A DNA stretch of 64,000 nt from Candidatus Krumholzibacteriota bacterium (GTDB lineage Bacteria; Krumholzibacteriota; Krumholzibacteriia; Krumholzibacteriales; Krumholzibacteriaceae): assembly GCA_030609325.1 (NCBI GenBank), contig JAUWCL010000004.1, positions 1 to 64,000 of the forward strand, read 5' to 3'. Below, piece by piece: positions 421-40,189 of the stretch. Below the pieces are notes generated by a model. That model saw only the letters and a program-made list of their open reading frames with translations. It was not told the DNA's origin and searched no databases. Made by a program: the position numbers and the translations under genes. How positions within the stretch are numbered: position 1 is the stretch's first letter; every line of letters begins with the position of its first letter.

Positions 421-1815
421 ATGAGTTGCACGGAAAAGGTCAGAGACTGGATCATCGAAAACGGGCTCATCAGCCACGGCGACCCGGTCACGGCGGCGGT
501 CTCGGGCGGCCCCGACTCGATGGCAATGCTCTCGATACTCAACAATCTCTCTGCCGGGCTGGGCTTCGCCCTGTCGGCGGCATACCTCGATCACCGCATC
601 CGGAAAGGAACGCAGCGAGAGCGGCGAATCGTCGAGAGGTGGTGCGCGCGCCTGGGGATCCCACTCGTAACCGGTGAGACGGACGTCCCCGCCCTGGCGA
701 AGCGCAGGAGGATAGGGCTGGAAGAAGCCGCCAGGGAGGCGAGGTACGGATTCCTCGAGAGGTTCGCCCGCCCGGCTTCCGGCGAACACGGATCTCTCGT
801 AGCACTGGGGCACAACAGCGACGACCAGGTCGAGACCGTGCTTCATCACATCATCCGGGGGACGGGGATCCGCGGGATCGCCGGGATGCCGGTGCGCCGC
901 GGAGCGTTCATCAGGCCGGTTATGTGCTGCACGGGAGAAGAGCTGAAGAGACACTGCAGGGAGAAGGGTATCGGTTACGCGATCGACCGTTCCAACAGTG
1001 ATATCAGGTTTCTCCGGAACAGGATCAGGCACAGGCTCCTGCCCGCACTGAGAAGGGACTTCAACCCTGCTGTCGACGACGCCGTCATCAGGCTCGCGGG
1101 GAACGCCCGCGACGGGCTTGCCGCCCTTGCCAAGGGTATCGGGAACCTGGTCCCGTTCACGGACGCGGACGGAAGCGTCACACTCGATGCTGCCCGAGTC
1201 CGGGATCTCTCCGACTACCGGCTCTACCTGCTCGTCGATTCGATTCTCAGAGACAGGTTCGGAGTCTACCGGGATATCGGCAGGGCCCATTTCGACGCGG
1301 TCGCGAAGCTTATCCGCGCGGGGCGCTCCGGAAAGAGGACGACTCTCCCCCACGGAATCAGGGTTACCCTGGAGCACGGCTCGGTCCGGTTCGAGCCGCC
1401 TTCGGACTCGACCGGCCCGGCATTTCCTCCGGACAATATCATTCTTCCCGGCGACGGCGATTTCGACCTGCCGGGCTGGAATATGACGGTCTCGGTGAAA
1501 ACGCTGCGTCGACCGGGCGGACCGTCCGCCCGCGTCTCCGGGATGGGGGCGTCGCTGGCCGGCGTGTCGTTTCCCGTCCGCGTCAGGCCCCGGCGGGACG
1601 GCGACCGGCTCATCCCTTTCGGCATGAAGGGGACAAAGAAGCTCAGCGACATCATGATCGATGCGAAAATCCCCCTCCGTGATCGCGGCGCCATCCCCGT
1701 CTTCGAGGACAGAAGGGGCATCATCTGGGTCCCGGGCCTCGTGACCGCCGAGAGGACGAGGATCACCGCCGCGAGCCGAAGGGTGACCGCCTTCTTTCTT
1801 TCCGAAAAGGGTTGA
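421..1815 (+). CDS. tilS: tRNA(Ile)-lysidine synthetase TilS
   Basis: This cytosolic enzyme converts C34 of the CAU-anticodon tRNA-Ile to lysidine using ATP and lysine, switching decoding from AUG to AUA. The 464-residue protein carries the N-type ATP pyrophosphatase PP-loop SGGPDS at residues 28-33, the N-terminal nucleotide-binding domain, and a C-terminal TilS domain that ends in a basic tail. Length is typical for the family. An in-frame GTG at 349 lies inside the tRNA gene, so I chose the ATG at 421. It is probably co-transcribed with the tRNA(CAT) just upstream, and hpt follows after 117 bases. The tilS-hpt-ftsH order is widely conserved, which supports the call. Confidence 0.95.
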   Translation: MSCTEKVRDWIIENGLISHGDPVTAAVSGGPDSMAMLSILNNLSAGLGFALSAAYLDHRIRKGTQRERRIVERWCARLGIPLVTGETDVPALAKRRRIGLEEAAREARYGFLERFARPASGEHGSLVALGHNSDDQVETVLHHIIRGTGIRGIAGMPVRRGAFIRPVMCCTGEELKRHCREKGIGYAIDRSNSDIRFLRNRIRHRLLPALRRDFNPAVDDAVIRLAGNARDGLAALAKGIGNLVPFTDADGSVTLDAARVRDLSDYRLYLLVDSILRDRFGVYRDIGRAHFDAVAKLIRAGRSGKRTTLPHGIRVTLEHGSVRFEPPSDSTGPAFPPDNIILPGDGDFDLPGWNMTVSVKTLRRPGGPSARVSGMGASLAGVSFPVRVRPRRDGDRLIPFGMKGTKKLSDIMIDAKIPLRDRGAIPVFEDRRGIIWVPGLVTAERTRITAASRRVTAFFLSEKG

Positions 1816-1932
1816 CCGCGGCACAGTACGGGAAAAAAGCGATTCCCCACACGCATTTCAGGAAAATTGAATGTCATATTCCGCGGGTTGTGTTAGTATC
1901 GCCTCGATGATCTTTGCGGAAGATGGGACGCG

Positions 1933-2481
1933 ATGGAGCAGCAGGGATTTATAACGCTCATCGAGGCCGATGACATCCAGCGCCGCGTGCGTGAGATGGC
2001 CGAACGCATTTCCATCGATTACGCGGAGTCGAACCCGCTCATCATCGTGCTTCTGAAAGGCGCCTTCATCTTCACAGCCGATCTGATCAGAAACCTCACC
2101 ATTCCGCACGAGATCGACTTCATCACGCTGTTCAGCTACGGAAAAGGGACGAAGCGAAGCGCCGACGTCGGAGTGATCAATCATATCCGCAGCCACATAG
2201 AGGACCGCGACATCATCATCGTCGACGAGATCGTCGATACGGGTCACACACTCTCACGCCTGATCAGGACGCTCGATGACCACAACGCCCGCAGTTTCAG
2301 GATATGCACCCTGCTCGACAAGCCCGACGCCCGCGAGGTCGAGATCGATGTGGATTACGTCGGGTTCACCATACCTGACGTGTTCGTAATCGGTTACGGT
2401 CTCGATTACAGGGAAAGGTACCGGAACCTTCCCTATATCGCCGAACTGACACCCGAGATTAAAAAAACCATTAAATTGTAA
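1933..2481 (+). CDS. hpt: Hypoxanthine phosphoribosyltransferase
   Basis: A purine-salvage enzyme that transfers phosphoribosyl from PRPP to hypoxanthine or guanine. The 182-residue protein has the type I PRTase PRPP-binding loop DEIVDTGHTL at about residues 98-107 and the family motif LLKGAFIF near residues 39-46. Length is normal. It lies downstream of tilS as in many bacteria. Its usual downstream partner ftsH is separated from it here by about 7 kb of oppositely oriented signalling genes, so hpt now converges on the sigma-54 regulator at 2582-4018. Confidence 0.95.
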   Translation: MEQQGFITLIEADDIQRRVREMAERISIDYAESNPLIIVLLKGAFIFTADLIRNLTIPHEIDFITLFSYGKGTKRSADVGVINHIRSHIEDRDIIIVDEIVDTGHTLSRLIRTLDDHNARSFRICTLLDKPDAREVEIDVDYVGFTIPDVFVIGYGLDYRERYRNLPYIAELTPEIKKTIKL

Positions 2482-2581
2482 CCAATACAGCCGGTTCTGC
2501 GATCTCTACCGTGAGTAGAGGGGCACGCTGGACGTCTGCATGCGGCATGAGCACCGGGCGGGAGAGAAGATGTTCCGCGGA

Positions 2582-4018
2582 CTATCGGGAATTCCGGCCG
2601 GGACGTTTGATGTCCAGCTTGGCAAGCTTGGACTCGAGGGTGGTCGGCTTGATTCCGAGGATCACGGCTGCGCCGTTCTTGCCGCGGACGCGCCAGCCCG
2701 TGCGCTCCAGGACATCAACAATGTGTTCCCGCTGGACCTCTTCGAGCGTCATGCCTTTTGCAGCGGCTTCGGGCCCTCGACTCGGAGCGGGCACGTGAAG
2801 CGTCCCGCCTGTCGCCCGGATCATGGCCCGTTCTATGACGTTGCGCAGCTCTCTGACATTGCCGGGCCATGGATAGCCTTGCAGGGCCTTCATGCTTTTC
2901 CGCGAGACGCTTTCGATCCGTTTGCCCATTTTTTCTGCAAGCTCAAGTACGAAGGCCAATACCAGAGGAGGGATGTCCTCTCTGCGCTCCCGCAGAGGGG
3001 GGATAGTGACCGGGAAGACATTAAGCCGGTAGTACAGATCATTGCGAAACGTTCCTTCCTCAACCGCCTTTTCCAGGTTGCAATTTGTGGCGGCGATGAT
3101 ACGCACATCAACCGAGATCGTCTTCGTGCTGCCCAGCCTCTCGAATTGCCCCTCCTGGAGCACCCGCAATAGTTTGACCTGAGACTCGATGGGCAGTTCG
3201 CCGACCTCGTCAAGAAAAATCGTTGACCCATTCGCCACTTCAAAGCGGCCGACCTGTCTCGTAATCGCGCCCGTATACGCGCCCTTTTCCCGGCCGAACA
3301 ACTCACCTTCGACAAGAGTGGAGGGCATGGCCGCACAGTTCACGACAACGAAGAGACGGTCTCTGCGCCCGCTCATGTTGTGGATCGCCCTTGCCAGCAG
3401 TTCCTTTCCCGTACCGGTTTCTCCTAGAATGAGAACGGTTGAGTCTGTTTCAGCCACCTGTTCCGCCTGAACCAGGACAGACTTCATGGCATCGCTCTGG
3501 CTGACGATGTCACCATGGAGTCCAGCCATCCGGATTTCTTCGCGCAGGCAGACGTTTTCGGCTTCCAGCTGCTCTTTCAGGACGCGCACCTTGATAAGTG
3601 CCTTCTTGAGTTCTTCCTCGGCCCGTTGTCGTCGAAGGCGCTCTTTCGCTTCCCGCAGCGCCCGGCGCACTGCGGGAACGAGACGTGACATCCGCTGCTT
3701 GAGGACATAGTCCGTGGCGCCGGCCTTCAGGCTCTCGATGGCCAACTCCTCCCCGAGTTGTCCTGACACAAGAATAAACGGCACTTCTGGACATTGTTCC
3801 TGCACAATGGCCAAGGCGGTCAACCCGTCGAACGAAGGTAGCGAGTAATCCGCCAGAATCAGATCGAACTCGTTCTTTTCCAGAGCGGTGACGAAGTCGG
3901 CACGCACCTCGACGTGGACCAATTCACAGACGACGCCTTCCTTGGCCAGTATCGACTTGGTAAACTCGACGTCTATTGGGTCATCCTCAAGGTAGAGGAT
4001 GCGCAACGGGGATTTCAT
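2582..4018 (-). CDS. Sigma-54-dependent response regulator (NtrC type)
   Basis: A 478-residue phosphorylation-dependent transcription activator. Domains in order: REC at 1-120 with acidic pocket E11/D12, phospho-acceptor D57 and K107; a charged coiled coil at about 120-165; an AAA+ sigma-54 domain with Walker A GETGTGKE at 199-206; and a C-terminal Fis-type helix-turn-helix. The sigma-54-contacting loop reads GAYTGA (246-251) instead of GAFTGA, a conservative change that usually keeps function. It is the last gene of a minus-strand island, 14 bases after the CheY-like gene. The kinase at 4548-6833 is the likely phosphodonor, and targets are unknown. Confidence 0.9.
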   Translation of the reverse strand: MKSPLRILYLEDDPIDVEFTKSILAKEGVVCELVHVEVRADFVTALEKNEFDLILADYSLPSFDGLTALAIVQEQCPEVPFILVSGQLGEELAIESLKAGATDYVLKQRMSRLVPAVRRALREAKERLRRQRAEEELKKALIKVRVLKEQLEAENVCLREEIRMAGLHGDIVSQSDAMKSVLVQAEQVAETDSTVLILGETGTGKELLARAIHNMSGRRDRLFVVVNCAAMPSTLVEGELFGREKGAYTGAITRQVGRFEVANGSTIFLDEVGELPIESQVKLLRVLQEGQFERLGSTKTISVDVRIIAATNCNLEKAVEEGTFRNDLYYRLNVFPVTIPPLRERREDIPPLVLAFVLELAEKMGKRIESVSRKSMKALQGYPWPGNVRELRNVIERAMIRATGGTLHVPAPSRGPEAAAKGMTLEEVQREHIVDVLERTGWRVRGKNGAAVILGIKPTTLESKLAKLDIKRPGRNSR

Positions 4019-4032
4019 CGTCCCATCCTTCT

Positions 4033-4485
4033 CTATTTGCTCCTTTTCTGGCTTCCCGGCGGCGGCTCATTGAGGACCGCCCAGAACAGCCCGATCTCCC
4101 GTACTGCCTCTACAAACTGTTTGAAATCCACAGGTTTTACCACGTACGCATTTACGCCAAGCTCATAGCTCCGAATGATGTCCTGCTCCTCACGGGACGT
4201 CGTCAGGATAATGACCGGAATCAGCTTCAGCTTCTCGTCCGCCCGAATTTGCTGAAGGACCTCCAGCCCGTCGACCTTGGGCATTTTCAGGTCCAGAAGG
4301 ATGAGCTCGGGATTCCCATTGGGCAGTGCCTCAAACTTCCCCCGACGATGGAGCAGGTCCAGCGCCTCTTCCCCGTCACGTGCCAACATCACTTCATTTG
4401 CCAGGTTGTGCCTCTTGAAGGCCGTGAGGGTCAGTTCGACGTCATGGGTGTTATCCTCGACCAGAAGAATTCGTCTCAGTTCCAT
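4033..4485 (-). CDS. Single-domain response regulator (CheY/Rcp1-like)
   Basis: A 150-residue stand-alone receiver. E10/D11 and phospho-acceptor D65 are present, the switch Thr lies in ILTTSREEQ, and the conserved Lys lies in VVKPVDF. The long insertion before the phospho-acceptor and the sequence style match the Rcp1 group that partners PAS/GAF or phytochrome-like kinases. It lies between a hybrid-sensor-style kinase (upstream) and the sigma-54 regulator (downstream, 14-base gap), so it may be a phosphate shuttle or competitor in the same circuit. Confidence 0.9.
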   Translation of the reverse strand: MELRRILLVEDNTHDVELTLTAFKRHNLANEVMLARDGEEALDLLHRRGKFEALPNGNPELILLDLKMPKVDGLEVLQQIRADEKLKLIPVIILTTSREEQDIIRSYELGVNAYVVKPVDFKQFVEAVREIGLFWAVLNEPPPGSQKRSK

Positions 4486-15528: not shown

Positions 15529-17301
15529 TCAGGAGACGGCCCCGGAGGGCTGTACCGATTTCGCTATCTCCTTCTCTATTACGGCGGCGAACTGGTTGAC
15601 GACCTCACGGTCGTAACGCAGGCCGTAATTCTCCTTAAGGGTGTCGAGCGCTTCCCTGCCGGACAGGGCCGGACGGTTCGGCCTCTCGTTTATCATGGCC
15701 GCATAGCTCTCGACAACGGAAATCAGCCTCGCTCCCAGCGGAATCTTCTTCCCTCTGAGACCCCTCGGGTAACCCTCGCCGTTGAACCGCTCGTGATGGC
15801 TGAGTACGACCTCGACAACGTGGTTGTTGAATTTCATACGCCTGAGCATTTCCGCCCCGTCCTCGGGATGTTTCTTGATTATCTGCCACTCTTCCCTGGA
15901 CAGCTCGCGCGGGCTGCGCACAATGAGATCGCTTACCTTTACCATGCCCATATCCCTGAGTACGGTACCGTAGATCAGATCCTTGAAGTTCTCTTCGGGG
16001 TAATTCATGTTCTTGGCAACCATGCCCACGTAACGGGACACGATCTCGGACGTCCCCTTCAGCATGGTGTTTTCCTCTATGAGCGATATGAGCGTCTTGA
16101 CTATGCCGAGCGTCCTCTCGTTTTCCCTTTCGAACATCTGGGCGTTGCTGTACGCACCCTTCGCCAGGTTGACGAGTATCTGCATGAATTCGAAATCTTC
16201 CTTCTGCATACCCCTGCCGGCGAGACGCTTACCGAGGAAGATCAGGCCGGTCATCTCCTCGCCCTGATTGAAGGGACAAACGTACTCGAGCCCCGCCTCG
16301 CCGAGACCGCTTTTCGTCTTGTCGCTCAGCGACATGCTGTCTATCTCGAAGACGTCCCTGCCCCATTTGATCCGTTCCACCTCATCATCGCTAAGCTCGA
16401 TCGGGGAAAGTTCCTCCTCGTCAATGCCCTTGCCTAGGGCAGGCAGGAAAACTCCCTCTTTATTCTCGTAGAAGACGGCAGATTCGACTCCGCCCTGGGC
16501 TATCGATGTCAGCAGGAAGATATCGAGCAGTTTCTTGCGTTCCCTGATCGAATTGAAGTCCGCGCTGATGGAGAACAGGGTCTTCAGCTCGAGGATGCGC
16601 CTCTTGAGCTTCCTGTTGAGCTCCTTGACGTCTTTCGTCTCGATCTCCTCGGTGAGACTGAACGGCGATACCGGATCGTCGATCCACTCGGGCGGAGATC
16701 CGCTCGGCTTGGAGTTGAATATCTCCGAAATGATCTCTTCCTCGCCGGCGTCCTCTTCCACGGCAGCCTGCAGTGCGGTTTCCGTTTCCCCGGCCTCAAC
16801 TGACTCCTCGACAACCTCTTTCTCCTGCTCCCCTCCCGATTGCGGTTGGTCGCTGCCGGAATCGTACGCCATCAGGATGACCCCGTCCTGAACGGCTGAA
16901 TCGCTTTCAGGGGCAGCTCCCGGCTGCGCGGCCTTCTCCTCTTTTTTCGCGGCCGGTGCTGCGCCGCCGGAGACGGCTTCGTCCAGTGTCGAACAGATGC
17001 GGATGTTCGTCTCGCCGTCCTGTAGAAAATCGAGGATGACACTGCTCGTGACCGCGAACGTGACCTCGCCGCCCATTTTCCTGAGATCCTTCACGAACCC
17101 CCTGAGGATCTTCGCCACACCGCCGCCGAGCGACGTGAGCTCGGAGAAGTCGAAGACAACCTGCTTGAGTTCCCTCTTGAGACATTCCTGCGTCAGCTGC
17201 TTGATCTTCTCGTTCTCGTGGAATCCGAGCTTGCCCGAGATCCGGAATCCGCCGCTGTCGGCACCGCCGATCTCGAGTTTTTCGAATCTGGTCCTTGTCA
17301 T
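15529..17301 (-). CDS. STAS-GAF-degenerate HD-GYP protein
   Basis: A 590-residue paralogue of the neighbouring HD-GYP regulator: the linker, GAF-like part and HD-GYP part align, but the N-terminus is a STAS domain (DFSELTSLGGGVAKIL). A long acidic linker (about 115-200) separates STAS from the rest. In the HD-GYP part the metal-binding His-Asp motif reads LRDMGM, so Arg449 replaces the His. HHERFNGEGYP and GYP at 510-512 remain. The protein is therefore probably not a normal phosphodiesterase and may sense or sequester c-di-GMP, or regulate its active paralogue. It lacks the Ser typical of anti-sigma antagonist STAS phosphorylation sites (SLGGG instead of SSG). Confidence 0.85.
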   Translation of the reverse strand: MTRTRFEKLEIGGADSGGFRISGKLGFHENEKIKQLTQECLKRELKQVVFDFSELTSLGGGVAKILRGFVKDLRKMGGEVTFAVTSSVILDFLQDGETNIRICSTLDEAVSGGAAPAAKKEEKAAQPGAAPESDSAVQDGVILMAYDSGSDQPQSGGEQEKEVVEESVEAGETETALQAAVEEDAGEEEIISEIFNSKPSGSPPEWIDDPVSPFSLTEEIETKDVKELNRKLKRRILELKTLFSISADFNSIRERKKLLDIFLLTSIAQGGVESAVFYENKEGVFLPALGKGIDEEELSPIELSDDEVERIKWGRDVFEIDSMSLSDKTKSGLGEAGLEYVCPFNQGEEMTGLIFLGKRLAGRGMQKEDFEFMQILVNLAKGAYSNAQMFERENERTLGIVKTLISLIEENTMLKGTSEIVSRYVGMVAKNMNYPEENFKDLIYGTVLRDMGMVKVSDLIVRSPRELSREEWQIIKKHPEDGAEMLRRMKFNNHVVEVVLSHHERFNGEGYPRGLRGKKIPLGARLISVVESYAAMINERPNRPALSGREALDTLKENYGLRYDREVVNQFAAVIEKEIAKSVQPSGAVS

Positions 17302-17322: not shown

Positions 17323-17562
17323 TCACTCCGCCCGTACCACCTCTTCTTCCTGAGCGAGCCATCTGTCCAGAACGCTCCTCAGGAAACGCCACTCGCTTCC
17401 AACCTTCTTCGCCGGAATTTTCTTTTCCTTCGCGAGACGGCATACTGTCTTGACGTGCATCTTGAGATACTCCGCCGCCTCGACGGATGTCATGACCTCG
17501 GTGGCGTCGTCGTTGCCGCCGATGATGATGCTGCCGTAGTCCCTGTGATGCTGTTTAACCAT
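17323..17562 (-). CDS. Small excisionase-like HTH DNA-binding protein
   Basis: A 79-residue protein with a MerR/excisionase-type winged helix (HTH_17): MTSVEAAEYLKMHVKTVCRLAK, split by its turn, followed by the KKIPAKKVGSEWRF wing. An N-terminal extension of about 23 residues and an acidic tail flank it. It lies 21 bases upstream of the STAS gene and about 100 bases downstream of the CheA-like gene, same strand. No integrase or attachment site is nearby, so a local transcription factor for the cluster is more likely than a phage excisionase. Confidence 0.8.
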   Translation of the reverse strand: MVKQHHRDYGSIIIGGNDDATEVMTSVEAAEYLKMHVKTVCRLAKEKKIPAKKVGSEWRFLRSVLDRWLAQEEEVVRAE

Positions 17563-19335: not shown

Positions 19336-21273
19336 TCACAGATTTGCTTCAGCCTTTTCCGCGTACTCTACCGCGCCGAGTTCGAAGAGGTCGTATACCA
19401 GCTCTTCGTCTGACTCCGGCATGCTGTCATCCATGTTTCCGGCTGAAGCGGGAGCCTTGAACCCTGGTACGACCTCAGGCTCTACAGCAGGGATCTCGTC
19501 GACGGGCGCGCTTTCCACTACTGGCTCTACTTCCACCTTTTCCCGGTCGTCAGCCTGTTCCTGCATATCATCCCAGCTCCCGCCCGCGGACGGATCGGCC
19601 TCCGCGACCGTTTCCTGCTGAGGAGGCGCCGCCTGTTCCGCTTCCGCGATCGGTCCGCCGGTGAACAGCTCGTCCACCACATCGGGAACCTCTTCGGCCT
19701 GCACCTGCTCCTCGACCTCCTTGTTTGTCTCCTCGGGAATTGCTTGAACCTCTTCCGCCTGCTGCTGATCAGCGTCGGACAGCATGGCCCTCATCGTATC
19801 CTGGAACCCCGATATGAGAAACTCACCGCTGTCGTCAGTAACCTCTTCTTCGGTAACGTCATCAACCGGAGCGCTCGTGTCGTCCCCCCCCCAGAGTTTT
19901 CCATGCTCTATCATGAAGTCGGAATCGTCGACCCCGCCGGGCTCATCATCCGATTTTTCGGTGTCGGCGCCGAAATTCACGATCGAGCCGTCTGTGGCGC
20001 GGATGAGCTCGTCCCCTTTATCGGCAATCTCGATATCCCCGGACTCTACGTGTTCGAACTTGAGTGTCTTGTTTATCTCTCCCATGTCGTTGCAGAGGGC
20101 CGTCATCTTCTGCTGAAGGGCCCGGCTGCGCGATTCGATCTTTGTCGATATCTCTATTATCCCGTGTTTCACTTCGGGAGAGGTACAGGTACCGGCGGTA
20201 ACGGAGCCGCCAGCAGATGATCTCGCGTTCCTGCTGCTGTCGGCCACGGTCCTCGCCAGGCTCTCCAGCTCTCGTCCGAGCTTGCTGAACCTCTCGGCCG
20301 TCGATCTGACTTTCTCGGCGAGATGCGCGAGGTCTTTCTCGGTCGTCTCGCCCCTCGCAGCCATCAGCGCTATATTGAGAGCAAGGCCGTTGCTTTCCTC
20401 GGAGAGCTCATGGATCGCTGAGCCTCTCTCCTCGAGAGCGACGGCAGTGGTCTCGATAACTGCGGTCGCGTCGGATGGGGAACCGGCATCGGCGGTTGTA
20501 CCGGATCCGCTGGACCCGAGACTTTCGGCTACCGCGTTGAGCCCACCTGTCAATCTGACTATATCGAGTATGTCCTCACTGGCGCCCGCGGCTATCTCGA
20601 CGACCTTGCCACAGGAAAGGGAAACACGGCCGGTCGCCTGCCTGGTCGCCTCGGACTGCTTCCTGAGTTCTGCCGTTCCGCCAGCGTTCTCATCCGCCCA
20701 TACCTTGACCTTCCTCACGATCGAGCCCCACCAGTTACCCTCGGCGAGCGTCTCGTTCATTTCCTTCCCCGCGAGGATCGAATCTATCTCCAACTCGAGA
20801 TCGACGGACCTCATCTCCTCCTCACGACTCTCCATGCCCTCAGAGATCTTGCGGATCTGGTCGCCGTAGCTCCTCAGGACATCCTGAAGCTCGGGGTACT
20901 CGGAAAGCCTCGCTATCTGGGCCGGATTGGTCAGATCGTCTATGCTGTCCGCCAGGGAAATCATCTTCCGATAATCCTGCCCGGAATTGAGGTAATACTT
21001 GTATCTGCGCACCGCGGAGGCTATGACGAAATAGGTAAACAGTGCGATAAGCACCACGCCGGCCGCTGCCGGGTAGATCTCCCTGAAGAACTGGTACGAG
21101 TCGATGACCCACTTGCTGACGTCGGAACTGAGCCAGTAAAGGTCGATGTCGTATACCCTGACCATGTAATAACCGACACCGAAACTGGTAACGATGAGCA
21201 TGAGCGCCACCATCATGCCGATTTTCCACGGAGAGGTGAGTACAGGTTTCTTATCTCGCTTTCGTTTTCCCAC
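19336..21273 (-). CDS. MCP-like membrane protein with atypical signalling tip and acidic tail
   Basis: About 645 residues from the GTG at 21273, chosen because AAGGAG lies six bases before it; ATG 21321 is the alternative. Two TM helices close to the N-terminus (WKIGMMVALMLIVTSFGVG and AAGVVLIALFTYFVIASAV) enclose only about 30 residues, so there is no large ligand domain. The cytoplasmic part has heptad-like helices, with EESNGLALNIALMAARGE where chemoreceptors have the QTNLLALNAAIEAARAGE tip. The following GFAVVAxEVR stretch is replaced by DLAHLAEKVR. The last 230 residues are acidic and low-complexity. It is probably the receptor for the CheA-like protein. Confidence 0.75.
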   Translation of the reverse strand: MGKRKRDKKPVLTSPWKIGMMVALMLIVTSFGVGYYMVRVYDIDLYWLSSDVSKWVIDSYQFFREIYPAAAGVVLIALFTYFVIASAVRRYKYYLNSGQDYRKMISLADSIDDLTNPAQIARLSEYPELQDVLRSYGDQIRKISEGMESREEEMRSVDLELEIDSILAGKEMNETLAEGNWWGSIVRKVKVWADENAGGTAELRKQSEATRQATGRVSLSCGKVVEIAAGASEDILDIVRLTGGLNAVAESLGSSGSGTTADAGSPSDATAVIETTAVALEERGSAIHELSEESNGLALNIALMAARGETTEKDLAHLAEKVRSTAERFSKLGRELESLARTVADSSRNARSSAGGSVTAGTCTSPEVKHGIIEISTKIESRSRALQQKMTALCNDMGEINKTLKFEHVESGDIEIADKGDELIRATDGSIVNFGADTEKSDDEPGGVDDSDFMIEHGKLWGGDDTSAPVDDVTEEEVTDDSGEFLISGFQDTMRAMLSDADQQQAEEVQAIPEETNKEVEEQVQAEEVPDVVDELFTGGPIAEAEQAAPPQQETVAEADPSAGGSWDDMQEQADDREKVEVEPVVESAPVDEIPAVEPEVVPGFKAPASAGNMDDSMPESDEELVYDLFELGAVEYAEKAEANL

Positions 21274-28523: not shown

Positions 28524-30842
28524 TTATAGCGTACCCCTCGCGATCCTGGCGGCGGCAATCTGCACCTGCCCCAGCGAGACTCCGCCGTCGTTCGGAGGGA
28601 CCGTCCTGTGCATCAAAAAATCGATCCCCGTGCCGACCGAAAGCTCCATGATCCACTCGCAGAGCAGCCTGTTCTGAAAGACACCACCGGACAGGACCGC
28701 CGTCGAGCATCCGTTCAGCGCCGCCAGTCTGACGGCAGTATCCACTATCATCCCGGCGACGCTCTCGTGGAACGCCGCTGCTATCTCCGAAGCAGGCACT
28801 CCCGTGCCGAGGTCATCCAGTATCCCCGCGATCACCGGAGCGGCGTCGATATCGATCGGATGACCCTTTCCGTATCCGAAGGAGTACCGCTTCCCGGCCG
28901 GGCCCGTCTCGAGCGCAAGGCTTTCGAGGGCAATCGCCGCCTGGGCCTCGTAGCTCACCCGCAGGCCGAGCCCGAGAAGGCCCGCCACCGCGTCGAAAAG
29001 CCTTCCGGCGCTTGAGGTCATCATCGAGTTGATGTTGCGGGCGGCCATTTCCATAATGATCTCCGCGGGGAGGTCGCCGAGCGGCAGCCCGGGGGGAGCG
29101 TTGTCGACAGCCGAGTCCCCGAACAGCTCGCGCAGGTACATCAGCGACATCCTCCACGGTTCCCTCACGGCCTTCTCACCGCCGGGTAACGGGACGTGTT
29201 TAAGGTGAGCGAGCCTCCGGAAATCCTGCGGGCGCGCCAGCAGGAACTCCCCACCCCAGAGGGTGCCGTCGCCCCCGTACCCCGTACCGTCGAACGAAAC
29301 GCCGATTACGGACTCGCTCAGACCATACTCGGCCATGACGCTGACCGCGTGGGCGTGATGGTGCTGCACCCTGATTATCCTGTCGGCGGCGAGCACGCCG
29401 GCTATCCTCGACGTGAAATAATCTGGGTGCATGTCCCTCACTATGACCGCGGGCGATACCTCGAGCATCCTCTCGAAGGAAACGAGCTCGCGGCGGTAGT
29501 TCTCCTGGCTCCTGTAGTCGCCGAGGTCCCCGAGATGGGGCGAGACGAAGGCCGAATCGCCCCTCGTCAGGGCGAAGGTCCCCTTTTCCTGACCCCCGAG
29601 GCCGAGAATACAGACATCGGCACCCGGGCTGATCGGGACCGGATCGGGCACGAATCCGCGCGCGCGACGTACCGGCATCGGCACGCCGCCGGGGACAAAG
29701 AATATCGAGTCGTCGCACTTGTGCGCTATCCGTCTGTCGTTGACGAGGGCCGCGTCGGCTATCGTTCCGAGTATCCCGTGAAGCTCCTCCTCGTTCGAGA
29801 TAAGCGGCTCATCGGCGAAATTGGCCGAGGACATCACGAGGGCCTCGAAATCCTCCATGAGCAGGTGATGAACCGGCGTATAGGGCAGGAAAGCCCCGGT
29901 GAATGCGTTCCCGGGAGCTATCTCAGCAGGGAGCAGCCCCGGTTCCTTCCTCCGCAGGAGGACGATCGGAGCCTCCGGAGACAGCAGCAGCCTCCGCTCG
30001 GCCTCTCCCGTCTCGCAACACCTCTCGAGAGTATCGATATCGCGGAACATAACAGCGAAAGGCTTTTTGGGGCGCTTCTTACGCTCGCGGAGGGTGGAGA
30101 CCGCATCCGCGCTGCCGGCGAGGCAGGCGAGGTGATATCCTCCCAGACCCTTGACGGCAAGTATCCTGCCGGCGGCGATCAGTCTCTTCGTTTCGGCGAC
30201 CGGGTCGCCGGGTATCTCCCGGCGTTCAGCGTCGATCAGAATCAGCCGCGGCCCGCAGTTCGGACAGGAGATCGGCTCTGCGTGGAACCTCCTGTCGGAA
30301 GGATCGGCGTACTGCCCGCGGCACAGATCGTCCATCTCGAACTCGCTCATCGTGGTGAGCGGCCGGTCGTACGGCAGCCCCTCGATTATCGTGAATCTCG
30401 GGCCGCAGTTGGTGCAGTTGATGAAGGGGTACCTGTGCCTCGGATCCTCAGGATCGCCCATCTCGCGCAGACAGTCGGCGCAGACGGCAGTGTCAACCGG
30501 ATAGAGGGCGTCCGAGCCTCCCCCCTCCTCGCTGGCGACGATTACAAATTCGCTCTCGCCGGTCGCTTCGACGGCCTCCGCTTCGAGCGAATCGATCCTC
30601 GCAAGTGGCGGCAGGTCATTCTCGAGTGCCGAGGCGAACGACAGGATCACCTCACGCGATCCCTCTACCTCTATCACGACACCGCGCCTGGTGTTCCTCA
30701 CGAATCCGGCGAGACCGGCCTCCACGGCCTCCCTGTATATCGAGGGCCTGAAACCCACCCCCTGCACCCGTCCCCTGACGGTCAGAGCGAGCCTTCCGGC
30801 TTCCCCCTCGATCTTCGATTCGAATATCTTCCGTATATCCAT
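28524..30842 (-). CDS. hypF: Carbamoyltransferase HypF
   Basis: Makes carbamoyl-adenylate from carbamoyl phosphate and ATP and passes the carbamoyl group to HypE. The 772-residue protein has the full order: an acylphosphatase domain (RGRVQGVGFRPSIYR), two zinc fingers (CxxC pairs in CADCLREMG/CTNCGPR and CRGQYADP/CPNCGPR), a YrdC-like domain, and a Kae1/TobZ-like domain with HHHAH and FDGTGYGGDGTLWGGEF. Start ATG 30842 gives the usual length; a longer frame to 30944 is not family-like. It forms a two-gene unit with hypE. Confidence 0.96.
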   Translation of the reverse strand: MDIRKIFESKIEGEAGRLALTVRGRVQGVGFRPSIYREAVEAGLAGFVRNTRRGVVIEVEGSREVILSFASALENDLPPLARIDSLEAEAVEATGESEFVIVASEEGGGSDALYPVDTAVCADCLREMGDPEDPRHRYPFINCTNCGPRFTIIEGLPYDRPLTTMSEFEMDDLCRGQYADPSDRRFHAEPISCPNCGPRLILIDAERREIPGDPVAETKRLIAAGRILAVKGLGGYHLACLAGSADAVSTLRERKKRPKKPFAVMFRDIDTLERCCETGEAERRLLLSPEAPIVLLRRKEPGLLPAEIAPGNAFTGAFLPYTPVHHLLMEDFEALVMSSANFADEPLISNEEELHGILGTIADAALVNDRRIAHKCDDSIFFVPGGVPMPVRRARGFVPDPVPISPGADVCILGLGGQEKGTFALTRGDSAFVSPHLGDLGDYRSQENYRRELVSFERMLEVSPAVIVRDMHPDYFTSRIAGVLAADRIIRVQHHHAHAVSVMAEYGLSESVIGVSFDGTGYGGDGTLWGGEFLLARPQDFRRLAHLKHVPLPGGEKAVREPWRMSLMYLRELFGDSAVDNAPPGLPLGDLPAEIIMEMAARNINSMMTSSAGRLFDAVAGLLGLGLRVSYEAQAAIALESLALETGPAGKRYSFGYGKGHPIDIDAAPVIAGILDDLGTGVPASEIAAAFHESVAGMIVDTAVRLAALNGCSTAVLSGGVFQNRLLCEWIMELSVGTGIDFLMHRTVPPNDGGVSLGQVQIAAARIARGTL

Positions 30843-31169
30843 AGAGCACTGTCGCAGAATGAAAAATGTCGTATTAAGATACCGGCGAAAGGCGCTCTTT
30901 TCCAGCAAAAACGCCCTGAATCTGATGATCGAGCCCATTACCATCTACGTCATGAAACTCGTCATAGCGCTCCTGTTCAGGGACGTTGCAGGCCTCGTAT
31001 TCGCCGGCGCTACCTGGCACCCTGACTGCTGTGAACAGCCTGACGATCCACCATTCGCCTGATCGCTTCGGGACCTTCGCATAACCCTTACCTCCGGTTA
31101 CGGGAAAGGGCCCGCTTCCGGCGGACCCCCTACCCGTAAATAACCGTTATCCCGTTGCTTTATTCGATC
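30843..31169. other. Intergenic region with imperfect long hairpin
   Basis: No gene is supported between hypF and the M3 peptidase gene. A GC-rich imperfect hairpin has GGTTACGGG (31096-31104) pairing with CCCGTAAATAACC (31133-31145), with further GGG/CCC pairs inside. It lies just after the peptidase stop on the minus strand. It lacks a clean T-run, so it is only a possible transcript end. Confidence 0.4.
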
Positions 31170-33269
31170 CTAGTTCAGGCCCCTTCTCTCGAGAAGCGGC
31201 TGGATGCTCGGAATCGCTCCCCTGAACTGCACGTACAGCTTCATCGGATCCTCCGAGCCGCCCTTGGCCAGGATGTTCTCCCTGAACAGCTGCGCCGTCT
31301 GGCGGTCGAATATGCCGTTCTCCATGAACGCCTGGAAGGCGTCGGCGTCGAGCACCTCCGCCCAGATGTAGCTGTAGTAGCCCGAGGCGTATCCGCTCGT
31401 GAAGATATGCCTGAAATATGTCGACCTGTACCTCGACTTGATCTCGGGGATAAGGCCGATGTTGCCGAGCGACTCGTTCTCGAACTCCCTCACGTCCATC
31501 TCGAAATGCTTGTCGATCGTGTGGTAGTCCATGTCGAGCAGCGAAGCGGCGAGGTACTCGGTCGCGGCGAAGCCCTGGTTGAACTGCTTCGCCTTCTTGA
31601 TCTTCTCGATCAGTTTATCGGGGATCGGCTCGCCCGTCTTATAGTGCTTCGCATACATCTTAAGCACCGCCGGGTCGGTCGCCCAGTTCTCCATGATCTG
31701 CGAAGGCAGCTCGACAAAGTCGGTCGCGACCGCAGTGCCGGTCAGGCTCTGGTAGGAACCGTCGGAGAGAAGGCCGTGAAGTCCGTGGCCCAGCTCGTGG
31801 AAAAGCGTGTTGACCTCGTCGAAGGTCAGCAGCGAGGGCATGTCGCCCGTCGGCTTGGAGAAGTTGCCAACGTTGTAGACGAGGGGAGCAACCATCTCGC
31901 CGTCGATCGTCCTCGACTGCTTGCGGAACGTGCCCATCCAGGCGCCGCCCCTCTTGCTCTCCCTGGGAAAGTAGTCGCAGAAGAATATTCCGATATGGCT
32001 GCCGTCCTCCTCCTTGACCTCGAACACACGGACGTCTTCGTGATACGTCGGTACGTCCTCGATCTCGGTGAAGGTGATGCCCCAGAGCCTGTTGACTGTC
32101 TCGAACGCACCGTCCATCACGCTGTCGAGCGGGAAGTAGGGCTTCAGGATCTCGTCGTCGAGATCGTACTTCTCCTTCTTCAGCTTCTCAGCGTAGTACC
32201 ACCAGTCCCAGCTCTCGAGCTCGAAACCGCCGCCCTCGCGGTCGATTATCTCCTGGAAAAGAGCGCGCTCCTCTTTCGCTTTCGCCAGCGCCGGCGTCCA
32301 GAGCTGGCCAAGGAGGTCGTATACGTTCTCGGGGACTTTCGCCATCGATTCCTCGAGGGCGAAGTGCGCGTAGGTCTTGTAGCCGAGGAGGTTAGACCTG
32401 TCGAGCCTCAGTGCTGTTATCTTCTCTATGATCTTCTTGTTGTCGAGATCGTCGCCGTTGTCGCCCATCATGAACCAGGCCCTGTAGATCTTCTCGCGGA
32501 GGTCCCTCCTCCCGGAGTACTGGAGGAAAGGGATCCAGCTCGGCTTGTGGAGGGTAAAAAGCCACTTGCCTTCGTAACCCCTGGCCGCGGCGGCCTCGGC
32601 GGCGGCGCTGACTACGAAATCGGGCAGGCCGGCGAGGGCCTTCTCGTCTTCCAGAACCATCTCGAACCTGTTCGTCTCCTTCAGGATGTTCTCGCCGAAC
32701 TGGAGTGTCAGGACGGAAAGCTCCTTGTTGATCGCGCGGAGTTTCTCCTTGTCCTCGACGCCGAGGTCGGCACCGTTGCGTACGAACCGCTTGTAGTAAT
32801 CGTCGAGCAGCTTGTCCTGCTCTGGAATAAGCGCGAGCGACAACCTCTTCTTGTGGACTGCCTTGACCCTCCGGAAAAGGTTGTCGTTGAGGATGATGTT
32901 ATCCCGATGCTCGGACAGCAACGGGGCTGCTTCCTTCGCTATCGCCTGCATCTGCTCGCTGGTGACCGCCGAATTGAGGCTGAAGAAGACCTCGGTGACC
33001 CTGTCGAGCAGCTCGCCGCTGTACTCGACGGCGAGGATCGTGTTCTCGAAGGTCGGTTCCTCAGCTCTGCCTGCGATCGCGTCGATCTCTGACTGGTGCT
33101 GCAGTATCCCTTCCCTCATGGCGGGCATGTAATGCTCTTCCTCTATCTCGGAAAAGGATGGGATCTGGTAAGGCGTGTCCCACTCCGTGAAGAACGGATT
33201 CTGCTCCTGCGGCGAGCACGCAAGCAGCAGCAGGACGACCAGCAGTGGCGCGAAAAACTTTCTCTTCAT
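31170..33269 (-). CDS. M3-family oligopeptidase, predicted lipoprotein
   Basis: A 699-residue zinc peptidase of the Dcp/oligopeptidase A group. The HEXXH site is HELGH (491-495) in TLFHELGHGLHG, with the later Glu ligand region FVELPSQIMENW and the GYASGYYSYIWAE substrate loop all present. Unlike cytosolic Dcp or PrlC it begins with a lipoprotein signal, LLLLACSPQ with lipid-acceptor Cys near 18, so it should be membrane-anchored outside the cytoplasm. AGGAGG lies upstream of the start. A role in periplasmic peptide turnover is inferred. Confidence 0.93.
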   Translation of the reverse strand: MKRKFFAPLLVVLLLLACSPQEQNPFFTEWDTPYQIPSFSEIEEEHYMPAMREGILQHQSEIDAIAGRAEEPTFENTILAVEYSGELLDRVTEVFFSLNSAVTSEQMQAIAKEAAPLLSEHRDNIILNDNLFRRVKAVHKKRLSLALIPEQDKLLDDYYKRFVRNGADLGVEDKEKLRAINKELSVLTLQFGENILKETNRFEMVLEDEKALAGLPDFVVSAAAEAAAARGYEGKWLFTLHKPSWIPFLQYSGRRDLREKIYRAWFMMGDNGDDLDNKKIIEKITALRLDRSNLLGYKTYAHFALEESMAKVPENVYDLLGQLWTPALAKAKEERALFQEIIDREGGGFELESWDWWYYAEKLKKEKYDLDDEILKPYFPLDSVMDGAFETVNRLWGITFTEIEDVPTYHEDVRVFEVKEEDGSHIGIFFCDYFPRESKRGGAWMGTFRKQSRTIDGEMVAPLVYNVGNFSKPTGDMPSLLTFDEVNTLFHELGHGLHGLLSDGSYQSLTGTAVATDFVELPSQIMENWATDPAVLKMYAKHYKTGEPIPDKLIEKIKKAKQFNQGFAATEYLAASLLDMDYHTIDKHFEMDVREFENESLGNIGLIPEIKSRYRSTYFRHIFTSGYASGYYSYIWAEVLDADAFQAFMENGIFDRQTAQLFRENILAKGGSEDPMKLYVQFRGAIPSIQPLLERRGLN

Positions 33270-33385
33270 CCCTTCATTCCTCCTGTCGAAATGGGATATG
33301 TTGCTTCAGGACCGGCGCACCGGGCGTACGAGAGATAATACGTAACACCCCGTACCATGTCAACAAGCGGAAACCCCGCCCGGCG

Positions 33386-34504
<1,119 letters not shown>

Positions 34505-34508
<4 letters not shown>

Positions 34509-36490
34509 TTATGCTCCCCGGCCGGCGGCGCGGCCTTGGGAGCTGGAATCCTGATGATAAAGGTGGTCCCTACGCCCGGCTTGCTCCTGACCTGGATCTT
34601 GCCGTTGTGCTCCTCGATGATCCGGTATGCGATGGCCAGCCCGAGCCCCGTGCCTCCCTTGGCCCTCTTCGTGGTGAAGAACGGATTGAATATCTGCTTT
34701 ACTGTGCTCTCGTTCATCCCCTTGCCGTTGTCCTCGACGAGGATGGTTATCATTCCCTTCTCGTAATGTGTCGCCACCTTGATCATACCCCTGCGTCCGT
34801 CGGGCATCGCCTGGCTGGCGTTGACAATCAGGTTGACCAGCACCTGCTCTATCTTCTGCGAATTGCCGGTGAATGCGGGAACGCCCGGAGAGAGATCGAA
34901 CTCGATGTCGGCGTGCTTGTAAACCTCGTTGTAAACGAGCCTCGCCGCAGTCTCTATCAGCGTGTTTATGTCGACCTGGTCGACGAGGAGACCCTCGTCC
35001 TTGCGGGTAAAGGTCCTGAGACCTTCGACGATCGCCTTGATCCTCTCCGACCCGTGCGCCATATCGTCGACGAGCGTCATGATGTGCTCGCGGAAGAAAT
35101 CGTAGTTCAGCCTGGCGATCTTCAGGTCGGGGTGCTCCTTGACGTAGTCGTCGACTATCGGCAGCATGTCCTCGAGCGACTGCTGAATGATCCTGATGTT
35201 TCCCCGGATGAACTGGTTCGGGTTATTTATCTCGTGCCCGATGCCGCTGACGAGCTGGCCGATCGAGGCGAGCTTGTCTGCCTGCTGGAGCTGCTGGTCA
35301 TACGTCTTCTCGAGTGTGATATCGCGGTAGAACTCGAGTATCCCGTCGACCTCGTGGTCCTGGTTGAACACGGGAAGGGCATGGACCTGGACATACCGCT
35401 CGTCCATCTTCATCGTCAGCATCACCGGCGTCTTGTCGCGGAGGATCCTCGCCAGGCGGCAGTCCTCACACGGCTTGTCGCGATGAAAATAGCTCGTGTA
35501 GCAGTAGGTCCCCGGCTCGATATCATCCCGGTTCGTCATCACGACCTTGTGCTTCTTGTCGATCAGGACGACGTCGTCGGGGATAACCTTGAACATCGTC
35601 TCGAGCCTCGACTTCGACTCCTCCCACCCCCCCTTGACGCGATCGAGGTACGAATCGACTATGCTCAGCTTGTTCTTCTGCTCCTCGAGCTCCTTCGTCC
35701 TCGATTCGATCTCGCCGCGCAGCTGCTCGAGGCGCTTGTTGTAGTCCTCTTCCTCTTCCTCCATCAGGTGGATCTTTTCCCCGAACTCCTTGCGCTCGAG
35801 GGCCACCTTGAGGCTTCTCCCGATCTCGTCGAGCAGCTTACGCTCCTCGGGAAGGAGTTCATGGTCGTCGTCTTGATAACCGACGAGGATCTCGCCCTTT
35901 TCCTCCTTCGCCACTACCAGCGGCACCCTGAGATGGTTTTTCGACGTCGGTTTCTGTCCGTACTCTACTCCCAGGTACCTCGAGTATATGACCACCTCAT
36001 CGGGATAGAGCATCCCCTGTCCGAGCGTCCTGGGAAATCGTGTGAAAAAATCGGGGATAGACAAGGAACCCTCGATCAGTTCAGCGACGCTGTAGAGGCA
36101 GGCGAGTTCCTTGATCCTCTCGTCCTTCTCCCACGCGTCGCCCCTGGTCAGACCCTCGAGCCTGTTTCCGAAGAGAGGGTAGACGTCGCCGTCATCGCCG
36201 ATCAGGTACCCGGCCTTGAGCGGAATGTGCAAGGAACCGTCGTCCTCTGTGGATAGGACCACAATTCCGCGGGTCCCTGCCTTCGCCTGGCTCATCGCCG
36301 ACCTGACGGTGGCGACGGAGAAACTGGTGAGCAGTTCCTCAATCGATCTGCCCTTGAGCGGTCCGTTATCGGGGAATGCGTCCGAGGCGATTTCCTCGCT
36401 TGCGTGAATCACCTTCGCGTTCTCGTCGAGCACAAGGAGGTAGTCGAAGCTTTCCTCCATGAAATCGAAGAAATTCTCGAGCTTCAGCAT
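34505..36490 (-). CDS. Soluble PAS/GAF sensor histidine kinase with Cys-PAS domain
   Basis: A 661-residue kinase without TM helices: N-terminal PAS (1-110), GAF-like domain (about 125-235), long coiled coil (240-300), and a second PAS whose CYTSYF and CEDCRLARIL cysteines could bind a metal or sense redox state. HisKA has phospho-acceptor at about H419 (GIGHEINNPNQF). The HATPase has N-box VLVNLIVNASQAM, G1 EDNGKGM and GGTGLGLAI. It lies four bases after the GltD-NuoG fusion gene and overlaps the receiver gene, so it is part of the redox operon. A cytosolic redox or flavin-state sensor is inferred. Confidence 0.9.
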
Positions 36491-36494
36491 ACTG

Positions 36495-39400
36495 TCACCT
36501 TACCCTGAACCGTCCCGTACCCACTTCGCGGATCTCCTTCCTGTACCTGCCCGTATGCGTGAGCGGCGGCATGAGCACGCTCTTTCCCGCGCCCGGGCCG
36601 GCGGCCGCCAGCCTGGCCTCAGCGCCGCGTTTCCTCCCCTGACCGGTGTTCCAGTACCACGGAAGCAGTTTTTTCGCGTTTTTCTCAACCACCGAACGAA
36701 GCTGCGCCGCCGTATCGTCGACATCCTTCAGCCCGAACTCCGACGCGAGCCCCTCGAGCACTTCCCTGCCCGACGATCCGGCCGGCGGCTCGACTGCTCG
36801 GCTGTATTCGACAACCCTGCCCTCGAAGTTGCATCTCGTGCCCTCAGTTTCGAGGAAGGTCGATCCGGGAAGCACGACGTCGGCAAAGCGCGTCGTCTCC
36901 GTATCGGTCCAGTCGATCGCCGCGAGGAATTCTATGTTCTGCAGCCACGAACCGGTCGCGCCCCAGGCCATCGGGTCCTCGCCTATTACGAGGGCCCCCC
37001 TGATCTCACCTTTCTCAAGGAGCTCGAGCAGCTCCTTTCTTGTATGGGCGCCCTCAGCTTTTTCCGGGGGGGCGGTCCTGCCCGGCGCAAAGGCCGGGTC
37101 GGCGCCCGTTACCGCGAGGCCGGCCGTGTTGGAGAAGGTCCTCGGGAGGAGGAGCTCCGCCGACGCTCCGGCCGCCCTGAGCAGAACAACGAGGTTCGCC
37201 AGCGTCTCCATGTCGCCGGCCGACTGGTCCTGCCTGCGGTCGGGGCTGTGGATGATCACTATATTCTTCGCGCCTGCTATCATCTCCGCCGCTTCTTTCA
37301 TCTTTTCTTCGTCCACGCCGCTCACGACCACGGCCGCTGCGGCTGTCGCGTCGAGTGCTGCGGTGAATTCCTTCCCGCCCGGCATCGCCGCGATTTTCTT
37401 CGCGTCGATAGCCCCGCTGTCGATAAGAGCCTTTATAATGCCGCTCCATAGGATAGCGGCCGTGCCCCTCATCGGGTCCATAGTGACGCTGGCCAGGTGC
37501 TGATCGGTCATGTCGAGGGTCGAATTCGAGACGATGAACTTCGCCCCGTTCCGTACCGCATCAATCACGTCGACCGCGAGGATCAGGTGGTCCGATTCAA
37601 GCGAGGTATTGTTGCAGATGATCAGGTCGGCGCCTGCGAGGCAGGACCTGTCGGCTGTCGACGCTGTGAATCCGAGAATCCCGTCGAGCGTTCCGGCTTC
37701 GCTGCCCGTCCCGAGCATCGACAGGGAAACGATGTTGTTCGTACCTATCGCCTCGCGAGCTATCCGCGCTGCGAGGAACATCTCCTCGCTCGTCAACTCG
37801 GGCGATACGAAGACCCCGACCTTGTCGGCGCCGTACTTGTCCGCTATCGAGAACAGCCCGGAGACGACCTCCTGCTGGGCGGCGCACATATCGATATTCT
37901 CGCGCTTGCTGCCGCTCCGCATCAGCGGTGCGGTGAGCCTCTTGTGCCTGATGAAAAGCTCCTGCCCGAATCTGCCGTAGCGGCAGAGGTACGCTCCCGC
38001 CACGTCGGGCGTCGTCGTGAAGTACCGGTCCTCGCCAAACTTCCTGACGCTCATCTCGCAGGCGAGCGAGCAAAAGGCGCAGTTCGTCTCGATGACCTCG
38101 TCGTAGAGCGCAGCCCTCCCGGGAAAGGGATACTTGACCGTCAGCGCAGCCGTCGGGCACGAGTCGACGCAGTTTCCGCAACTCACGCAGCTCGTCTCGA
38201 CGAGAGGATCGTTCATCGCGGGACGCATCTCCGTCCTGAATCCCCGGCCGACCAGGCCGATCGCCGAGATAGGAAGGACCCGTTCGCATGTCCTGATACA
38301 CCTCGCGCAGAGGATGCACTTGTTCGGATCGTATATGATGTATGGATGCCGATCGTCTACCTTGTGCTTACGCGCGTATCCCTTGTACTTCTCCATGTCG
38401 ACGCCGTACTTCTCCGCCCCGAGCCTCAGGTCGCAGTCGTAGAACCTCACGCACCCGCACGAGAGGCAGCGGTCGCATTCGTGGACGTTGTCCTCGAACT
38501 CGAAGCCGGTGGCTACCTCGCCAAAGCTGCCGCGGCGTTCCTCGACATCGATGAAATGGACCTCGTGCCTCGGGCTCTCCTTCACATCGCCGAGTTCGGT
38601 CTTTCCGGGCTTCGCCCAGAACTCCTTACGCACGACGAACGGCTCGGCGGGCACTTCTTCACCCCTGAGGAAGGCTTCGATCGCCTTCGCCGCCCTCTGG
38701 CCGTCCCTGATCGCATCGATAACGACCGTCGGCCCGTCGTCGGCGGCGTCGCCGCCGGCGAAAACACCCTCGACGTTCGTCTTCATCGTAGCCAGGTCGA
38801 CAACATACGTGTTCCAGCGGGTCAGCTCTATCTCCTCGCCGTCGAGAACGGTCAACCCGTCGAGAACGGTATTCTGACCGATGGACGATATCGCCATCTG
38901 GCAGGGCAGGTCGTATTCCGAACCTTCCAGCGGCACGGGGCGCCGGCGTCCGGAATCGTCCGGCTCTCCGAGCTTCATCCGCTGGCACCTGATCGCCCTG
39001 AGCTTTCCGTTCTCCGCCACGATACCTACGGGAGCGGCGAGCTCCATTATCTCTATGCCCTCCTCAAGGCATTCCTCTATTTCCATCCTGTCGGCGGGCA
39101 TCTCGTCCTTCGTCCGCCGGTAGAGCACGATGACCTTGTCCGCACCGAGGCGCCACGCCGTCCTCGCGACGTCCATCGCCGTATTGCCGCCACCCACCAC
39201 GACTACCGTTCCGGTCAACGGCTCGGGCTTCTCGTTCATCACGGGAAGGAAATCGGCGCCGGTCAGGACGCCCTCCGTATCGAACTCCCCCTCGACTCTC
39301 ATCGGCTTGCCCGTCCACGCGCCGGCGCCGAGGAACACGGCGTCGTGTTTCTTCCGCAGCTCGTCGAGCGTGACGTCCTTACCGACACGGACGTTGTAAT

Positions 39401-40178: not shown

Positions 40179-40189
40179 GGACTCAATCC

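Follow-up and report, generated by a model that had tools for sequence, protein, structure and literature searches.

The nearest precedent for the locus described here is the PA2572/PA2573 pair of P. aeruginosa, in which an inactive, GYP-retaining HD-GYP variant is encoded beside an MCP (PMC3411652). According to the available part of that report, PA2572 (REC-YN-GYP) has no detectable phosphodiesterase activity, receptor and regulator make contact in two-hybrid experiments, and the two proteins share a regulon; CheA and CheW are not mentioned in its text (PMC3411652). Two further HD-GYP proteins are relevant, both treated in the available part of PMC4159591. Bd1817 of Bdellovibrio (3tm8) has an inactive HD-GYP fold in which the GYP tyrosine is lost and a di-iron site uses the HD diad. 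PmGH of Persephonella (4mcw), which combines a GAF domain, a long helix and an HD-GYP domain, is an active tri-iron phosphodiesterase; its metal touches the phosphate of c-di-GMP, and R314 and K317 contact guanine (PMC4159591). An inactive HD-GYP domain is in itself a known kind of protein.

The gene P0001 lies in the window (the whole 64,000-nucleotide stretch of Krumholzibacteriota DNA that we analysed; Table 1) and differs from each of these systems. PA2572 has REC and YN, whereas P0001 has STAS and RD, and PA2572 and PA2573, as described in the available text, are separate transcription units without a CheA-like pseudokinase, an HTH protein or a second HD-GYP (PMC3411652). Similar to Bd1817, P0001 keeps the HD-GYP fold (Z 17.7), but its losses are the reverse, the GYP tyrosine being retained and the HD diad altered. 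It shares the GAF-long helix-HD-GYP arrangement of PmGH, which, as described, lacks a STAS domain (PMC4159591). The upstream protein P0003 has the P1, P3, P4, P5 order and folds of CheA from E. coli and Thermotoga. Our searches of the literature on inactive HD-GYP proteins, STAS-HD-GYP proteins and CheA pseudokinases turned up neither a comparable STAS-HD-GYP protein nor a comparable CheA pseudokinase; the STAS fusion, the fixed arginine and the association with a CheA pseudokinase gene and a hyperconserved HTH gene are undescribed in the literature searched, which does not prove absence.

Table 1. Coordinates of the genes and domains discussed, as positions in the window
Feature	Coordinates	Strand	Remarks
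P0001 gene (STAS-linker-GAF-HD-GYP pseudoenzyme)	15529..17301	(-)	ATG start, 590 aa
P0001 STAS domain, residues 1-115	16957..17301	(-)	Pfam and conservation
P0001 disordered linker, about residues 116-222	16636..16956	(-)	conserved short motifs; low-confidence model region
P0001 coiled coil, GAF-like domain and start of long helix, residues 223-395	16117..16635	(-)	model
P0001 degenerate HD-GYP, residues 398-582	15556..16110	(-)	Pfam, motifs, structure match
P0001 L448-R449 codons	15955..15960	(-)	AGG (15957-15955), Arg replacing the HD His
P0002 REC-GAF-HD-GYP neighbour, 516 aa	13965..15515	(-)	TTG start; DDDSK receiver and HD-GYP motifs intact
P0005 HTH protein, 79 aa, HTH_17 excisionase family	17323..17562	(-)	Pfam/TIGR01764
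P0003 CheA-architecture protein (P1-P3-P4-P5/CheW), 556 aa	17660..19330	(-)	R50 at phospho-His; shortened ATP lid
P0004 MCP-like membrane protein, 661 aa	19336..21321	(-)	tip ALNIALMAARGE; C-terminal DLFELGAVEY on acidic tail

Domain architecture and active site of P0001

Pfam recognises a STAS domain (PF01740; 37.0 bits, cut-off 22.6; residues 19-109) and an HD_5 domain (PF13487; 113.1 bits, cut-off 27.2; residues 406-567) in P0001. In the AlphaFold2 model (mean pLDDT 79.4, pTM 0.49), the two are separated by a GAF-like domain and its long helix, and a linker at about residues 117-221 is modelled with low confidence. In structure comparisons, the model matches SpoIIAA in the STAS fold (1th8, Z 15.4), PmGH over 338 residues (Z 24.8) and PA4781 in the HD-GYP fold (Z 20.1); the VIA-align rows cover some parts of the models, but not all. 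Given the low pTM of this model and of that for P0003 (pTM 0.61, pLDDT 80.2), the domain arrangement is not fixed by the models. The earlier note had read P0001 as a paralogue of the adjacent REC-HD-GYP protein, with STAS in place of REC, and a BLASTP alignment of the two bears this out (28% identity over 380 columns across GAF and HD-GYP, E 1e-56). It had described neither the GAF domain, nor the HTH gene directly upstream, nor the CheA-like and MCP-like genes.

In SpoIIAA, the DSSG motif is the phosphorylatable Ser/Thr site of STAS anti-sigma factor antagonists. The corresponding loop of P0001 is of the [LIMV]GGG type, with G59 present in all 59 rows, and a conserved STAS phospho-acceptor was not found among the orthologues, where no Ser/Thr column is more than 90% conserved. 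The linker that follows is disordered for the most part; within the home order, it carries the conserved stretches VILMxYD and IISEIF...PPxWIDxPxSPF.

The HD-GYP domain reads LRDMGM where the neighbour P0002 has LHDIGK, so that R449-D450 stands for the former HD. As the earlier note had said, HD has become RD and GYP is retained: the codon for residue 449 encodes arginine (Table 1), and the GYP motif is HHERFNGEGYP (canonical HHExxDGxGYP), with HHE and GYP intact and D changed to N. We paired residues with PmGH by motif alignment, taking its ligands from the available part of PMC4159591. The metal ligands H189, H221 and D305 correspond to T417, R449 and E531, K225 to M453, and D308 to A534. 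The counterparts of D222, H250, H276 and H277 (D450, H478, H502 and H503) and the GYP tyrosine are unchanged, and Y511, R540 and R543 are the counterparts of Y285, R314 and K317. The claimed loss of a metal-binding histidine therefore stands, but it understated the case, as T417, E531, M453 and A534 mark further changes. R449 probably sits where the metal used to bind and would pair there with the acids D450 and E531. With the HD-GYP fold present and the diad histidine gone, P0001 falls among the inactive HD-GYP regulators of the PA2572 and Bd1817 type, as a presumably inactive member.

A second pair of degenerate HD-GYP proteins of about 1000 aa is encoded elsewhere in the genome (G000:C52, 30633-31127 and 33793-34278; L004, L005, L134), with IYDLGMM and VHDVGMT motifs. 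Proteins of similar length match them in relatives too.

Conservation of the degenerate site in Krumholzibacteriota

The earlier note had named the fixation of the arginine in orthologues as one check, and the finding of an intact HD motif there as one possible refutation. Among 64 distinct orthologues from Krumholzibacteriota, each of at least 300 aa, the position of the HD histidine holds Arg in 63, Cys in one and His in none, so this condition does not refute the proposal. The same set has Met in 38, Leu in 22, Gln in three and Arg in one at the K225 position; Glu in 58, Gln in four and Asp in two at the D305 position; and Asp in 60 and Asn in four at the position of the HD aspartate. In a 46-row alignment reaching down to 21% identity, R449, D450, H478, H502, E504, G508, G510, P512, R525, E531 and D564 are invariant; outside this alignment, D450 and E531 are replaced in a small number of orthologues that are more distant. 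Wherever an adjacent REC-type sequence extends over the active-site columns, these are intact. An annotation or frame error behind R449 is ruled out by the occurrence of the same substitution in independent assemblies.

In the tree, a branch with an SH-aLRT of 82 (not starred) separates the 63 STAS-type rows used from all others, so that a single ancient loss is enough. The one orthologue with Cys at position 449 (L169 in genome G073, 1738-4074) has His at the H189 and Asp at the D305 position, and may thus be an intermediate or a reversal.

Across the 29 loci that carry both genes, mean identity is 69.5% for the pseudo-HD-GYP domain and 66.1% for the intact one, the former being higher in 320 of 406 pairs. 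The HD-GYP domain of P0001 is under strong purifying selection, and we therefore regard the protein as a fixed pseudoenzyme. That P0001 is a decaying pseudogene copy, as the loss of several motif residues might suggest, is refuted by this conservation and has next to no probability, since the frame is open across lineages, the same substitution is fixed and domain identity equals or exceeds that of the intact paralogue.

Of 80 phylum genomes, 66 have a match strong enough to represent P0001, the weakest of which (G061) is confirmed by locus L182. The gene is absent from 13 genomes, and in the remaining one (G044) the contig breaks off next to the neighbour gene. In nine genomes from other phyla, the listed matches span GAF and HD-GYP and none reaches STAS; a separate contig scan used a few peptide patterns and is not exhaustive.

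The CheA-like, MCP-like and HTH genes upstream

P0005, P0003 and P0004 lie upstream of P0001 in the same direction, separated by gaps of 21, 97 and 5 bases, and this order is maintained in most of the loci mapped.

In P0003, Pfam matches CheW only. Structure comparison recovers P1 (1i5n; Z 15.9, rmsd 2.5 over 129), P4 (1i58; Z 14.2, rmsd 3.6 over 144) and the CheW part (2ch4_W; Z 15.7, rmsd 2.2 over 129), and the P1-P3-P4-P5 domain order of CheA is present. Unlike CheA, P0003 has neither the phospho-His nor the GxGxG box, and its ATP lid is about 33 residues shorter, as seen in the alignment with the genome's own canonical CheA (L130:6295-8025; hhalign E 1.2e-6). The phospho-His column of 27 orthologues holds Arg in 20, Lys in four, Thr in one, Ser in one and a gap in one; a phospho-acceptor histidine occurs in none of the 26 rows that have a residue there. 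In the nucleotide-binding N/G boxes, the Asp is kept, and the second Gly of DxGxG and the GxGxG motif are lost; weak nucleotide binding is possible. Pfam detects a fused receiver in 6 of 25 orthologues. Among those listed, the acidic pair is gone, and some also lack the phospho-Asp or the Lys. A canonical che cluster is present in the same genome on another contig.

In family f5, the CheA-like gene is replaced by one for a protein of about 215-350 aa. Parts of this protein resemble P1 and a receiver, with no Pfam family scoring above its cut-off; thus, the scaffold is not constant. Judged by its motifs (LLLVDS, CDNxEP), the C-terminal half of the longer replacements looks receiver-like, although Pfam does not recognise it. 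In locus L030 (2666-5707), CheA-like and HTH parts share one 1014-aa frame. The stretch between them resembles a translation of non-coding DNA, which makes fusion and frameshift equally likely explanations.

P0004 scores 22.9 bits against the MCP family of Pfam, below the cut-off of 34.6, and hydrophobic segments are visible by eye at its N-terminus. In 36 aligned orthologues, the chemoreceptor-like tip is clear in the home lineage, where it resembles that of the genome's canonical MCP, and weaker in f5. Each of the 30 tails listed carries a form of the DLFELGAVEY motif near the C-terminus. At the tail end (19336-19400), this takes the form DLxELGAVE, with two or three copies in several f5 and f6 orthologues, and it looks like a docking peptide. 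As a genome-wide docking motif, DLxELGAV was rejected: a DNA-pattern search gave three matches in the genome, of which only the one in P0004 is in frame with a plausible gene.

P0005 scores 52.9 bits for HTH_17 (cut-off 27) and 48.7 bits for TIGR01764 (cut-off 28.8); a PDB sequence search with it returned no match. It is the most conserved gene of the operon (mean identity 86.5%), and its identity to the window copy stays at 73-100%, whereas that of STAS and GAF falls to 19-50% in distant loci.

Further along the window (28524-41968), HypF, a NuoF-like protein and a 1299-aa molybdopterin/NuoG/GltD-like protein are encoded, a set that resembles a locus for a hydrogenase or a formate dehydrogenase.

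Alternative readings and a proposed mechanism

On sequence grounds, the operon is one of a predicted MCP-like receptor, CheA-like pseudokinase, HTH regulator and STAS-GAF-pseudo-HD-GYP protein, joined in some lineages by an intact REC-HD-GYP protein. In the P1 domain and lid of the CheA-like protein, the STAS loop and the HD-GYP site, the folds are kept and the residues for phosphotransfer or hydrolysis are gone. This suggests a complex that works through protein contact and not through catalysis. We favour, with some reserve, an explanation in which the operon is of chemosensory origin and P0001, fixed as a pseudo-phosphodiesterase, signals by conformational contact. As to its role, the best reading is that of a non-catalytic adaptor or c-di-GMP-pocket sensor within a conformational scaffold.

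It is possible, if rather unlikely, that P0001 is instead a c-di-GMP receptor, binding the ligand without cleaving it and passing the signal to the CheA-like and HTH proteins. Consistent with this, the window protein has Y511, R540 and R543 in common with the orthologues of f1, f2, f3 and most of f7, and GGDEF domains are matched in the genome three times in full and once in part. However, most f5 orthologues have GFP instead of GYP and the basic pair occurs in no scored f5 or f6 row, yet R449 is kept; the phosphate-contacting metal of PmGH would also be missing.

The earlier note had proposed that P0001 and P0002 could form an active/inactive heterodimer, in which the STAS protein would gate the phosphodiesterase; the two would pair through their common GAF domain and long helix. 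The paralogy, the lost histidine and its fixation all hold. The GAF domain (below the Pfam cut-off in P0002), the long-helix region and HD-GYP are common to both paralogues in sequence and are seen in the P0001 model, and the PmGH dimer is formed by GAF and the long helix, according to the available part of PMC4159591. A gap of 13 bases separates the two genes, and their translation is likely coupled. However, an adjacent downstream REC-HD-GYP gene is present for 30 of the 64 orthologues and absent for 26, with eight too near a contig edge. Absence was scored only with at least 1.5 kb of downstream sequence, and an automated count of 27/29/8 was amended by reassigning L018, L026 and L103, where the neighbour appears as an extended or split frame. 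We also searched 15 neighbour-less genomes with P0002. Among the matches listed, none in any of the 15 was a GAF-plus-HD-GYP orthologue located elsewhere; these were HD-domain, receiver or weakly scoring other GAF/HD proteins, or the pseudoenzyme itself. The same search gave E values of 1e-99 and 1e-109 over most of P0002 in two control genomes that have the neighbour. Heterodimerisation therefore cannot be the conserved function: an obligate P0001/P0002 pair is ruled out as a general role by 26 of 56 scorable loci and 15 of 15 genomes without the neighbour, in which R449 is still fixed.

The heterodimer reading as a whole is doubtful, although one correlation would fit a coupling of the two proteins. 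Of the 30 orthologues with the neighbour, 29 have basic residues at both counterparts of the guanine-contacting R314 and K317, as opposed to none of the 26 without it, a pattern that is suggestive of coupling. As proof of coupling we reject it: in a tree of 54 rows (fragments L027 and L182 left out), two neighbour changes and one pocket change suffice, leaving one or two independent pairs only. Most lineages with the neighbour show an intact receiver in it; in f3 (L103, L105) and genome G039 (L030) it is degenerate (HPEAR, DPDGK) with HD-GYP intact.

It is quite improbable that P0001 has retained an enzymatic activity, whether through a rearranged metal site or on a different substrate. Three of the four non-diad histidine ligands, D450 and the fold are kept, but the counterparts of H189, H221, K225, D305 and D308 have all changed, and single alanine mutants of H189, H221 or K225 abolish or essentially abolish the activity of PmGH, as reported in the available part of PMC4159591.

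Under the favoured explanation of signalling by conformational contact, the MCP-like receptor would alter the conformation of the CheA-like scaffold, and the STAS, GAF and pseudo-HD-GYP domains of P0001 would relay this change by contact. The HTH regulator P0005 would be the conserved output, with the active HD-GYP neighbour as an extra output in the lineages that have it; all contacts among the five operon proteins are predicted from synteny alone. Where the neighbour is present, the residues of the c-di-GMP pocket are conserved, so P0001 may also sense c-di-GMP in those lineages, and with the neighbour's receiver intact in most of them, phosphorylation by a kinase elsewhere may remain an input.

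More tentatively, the operon might be a chemosensory system wholly without phosphotransfer, in which receptor, CheA-like core, STAS and HD-GYP serve as folds only and signal by contact to a hyperconserved DNA-binding protein, joined in some lineages only by an active HD-GYP enzyme. His has been replaced by Arg in both the CheA-like P1 domain and the HD-GYP domain of the operon. Pseudoenzymes of c-di-GMP signalling have been known as single cases. The phylum-wide operon described here holds several enzyme-derived folds without their active residues, and thus offers a natural test of chemosensory scaffold signalling without phosphotransfer. The lineages with and without the intact paralogue would provide built-in controls for partnerships between active and inactive HD-GYP proteins.
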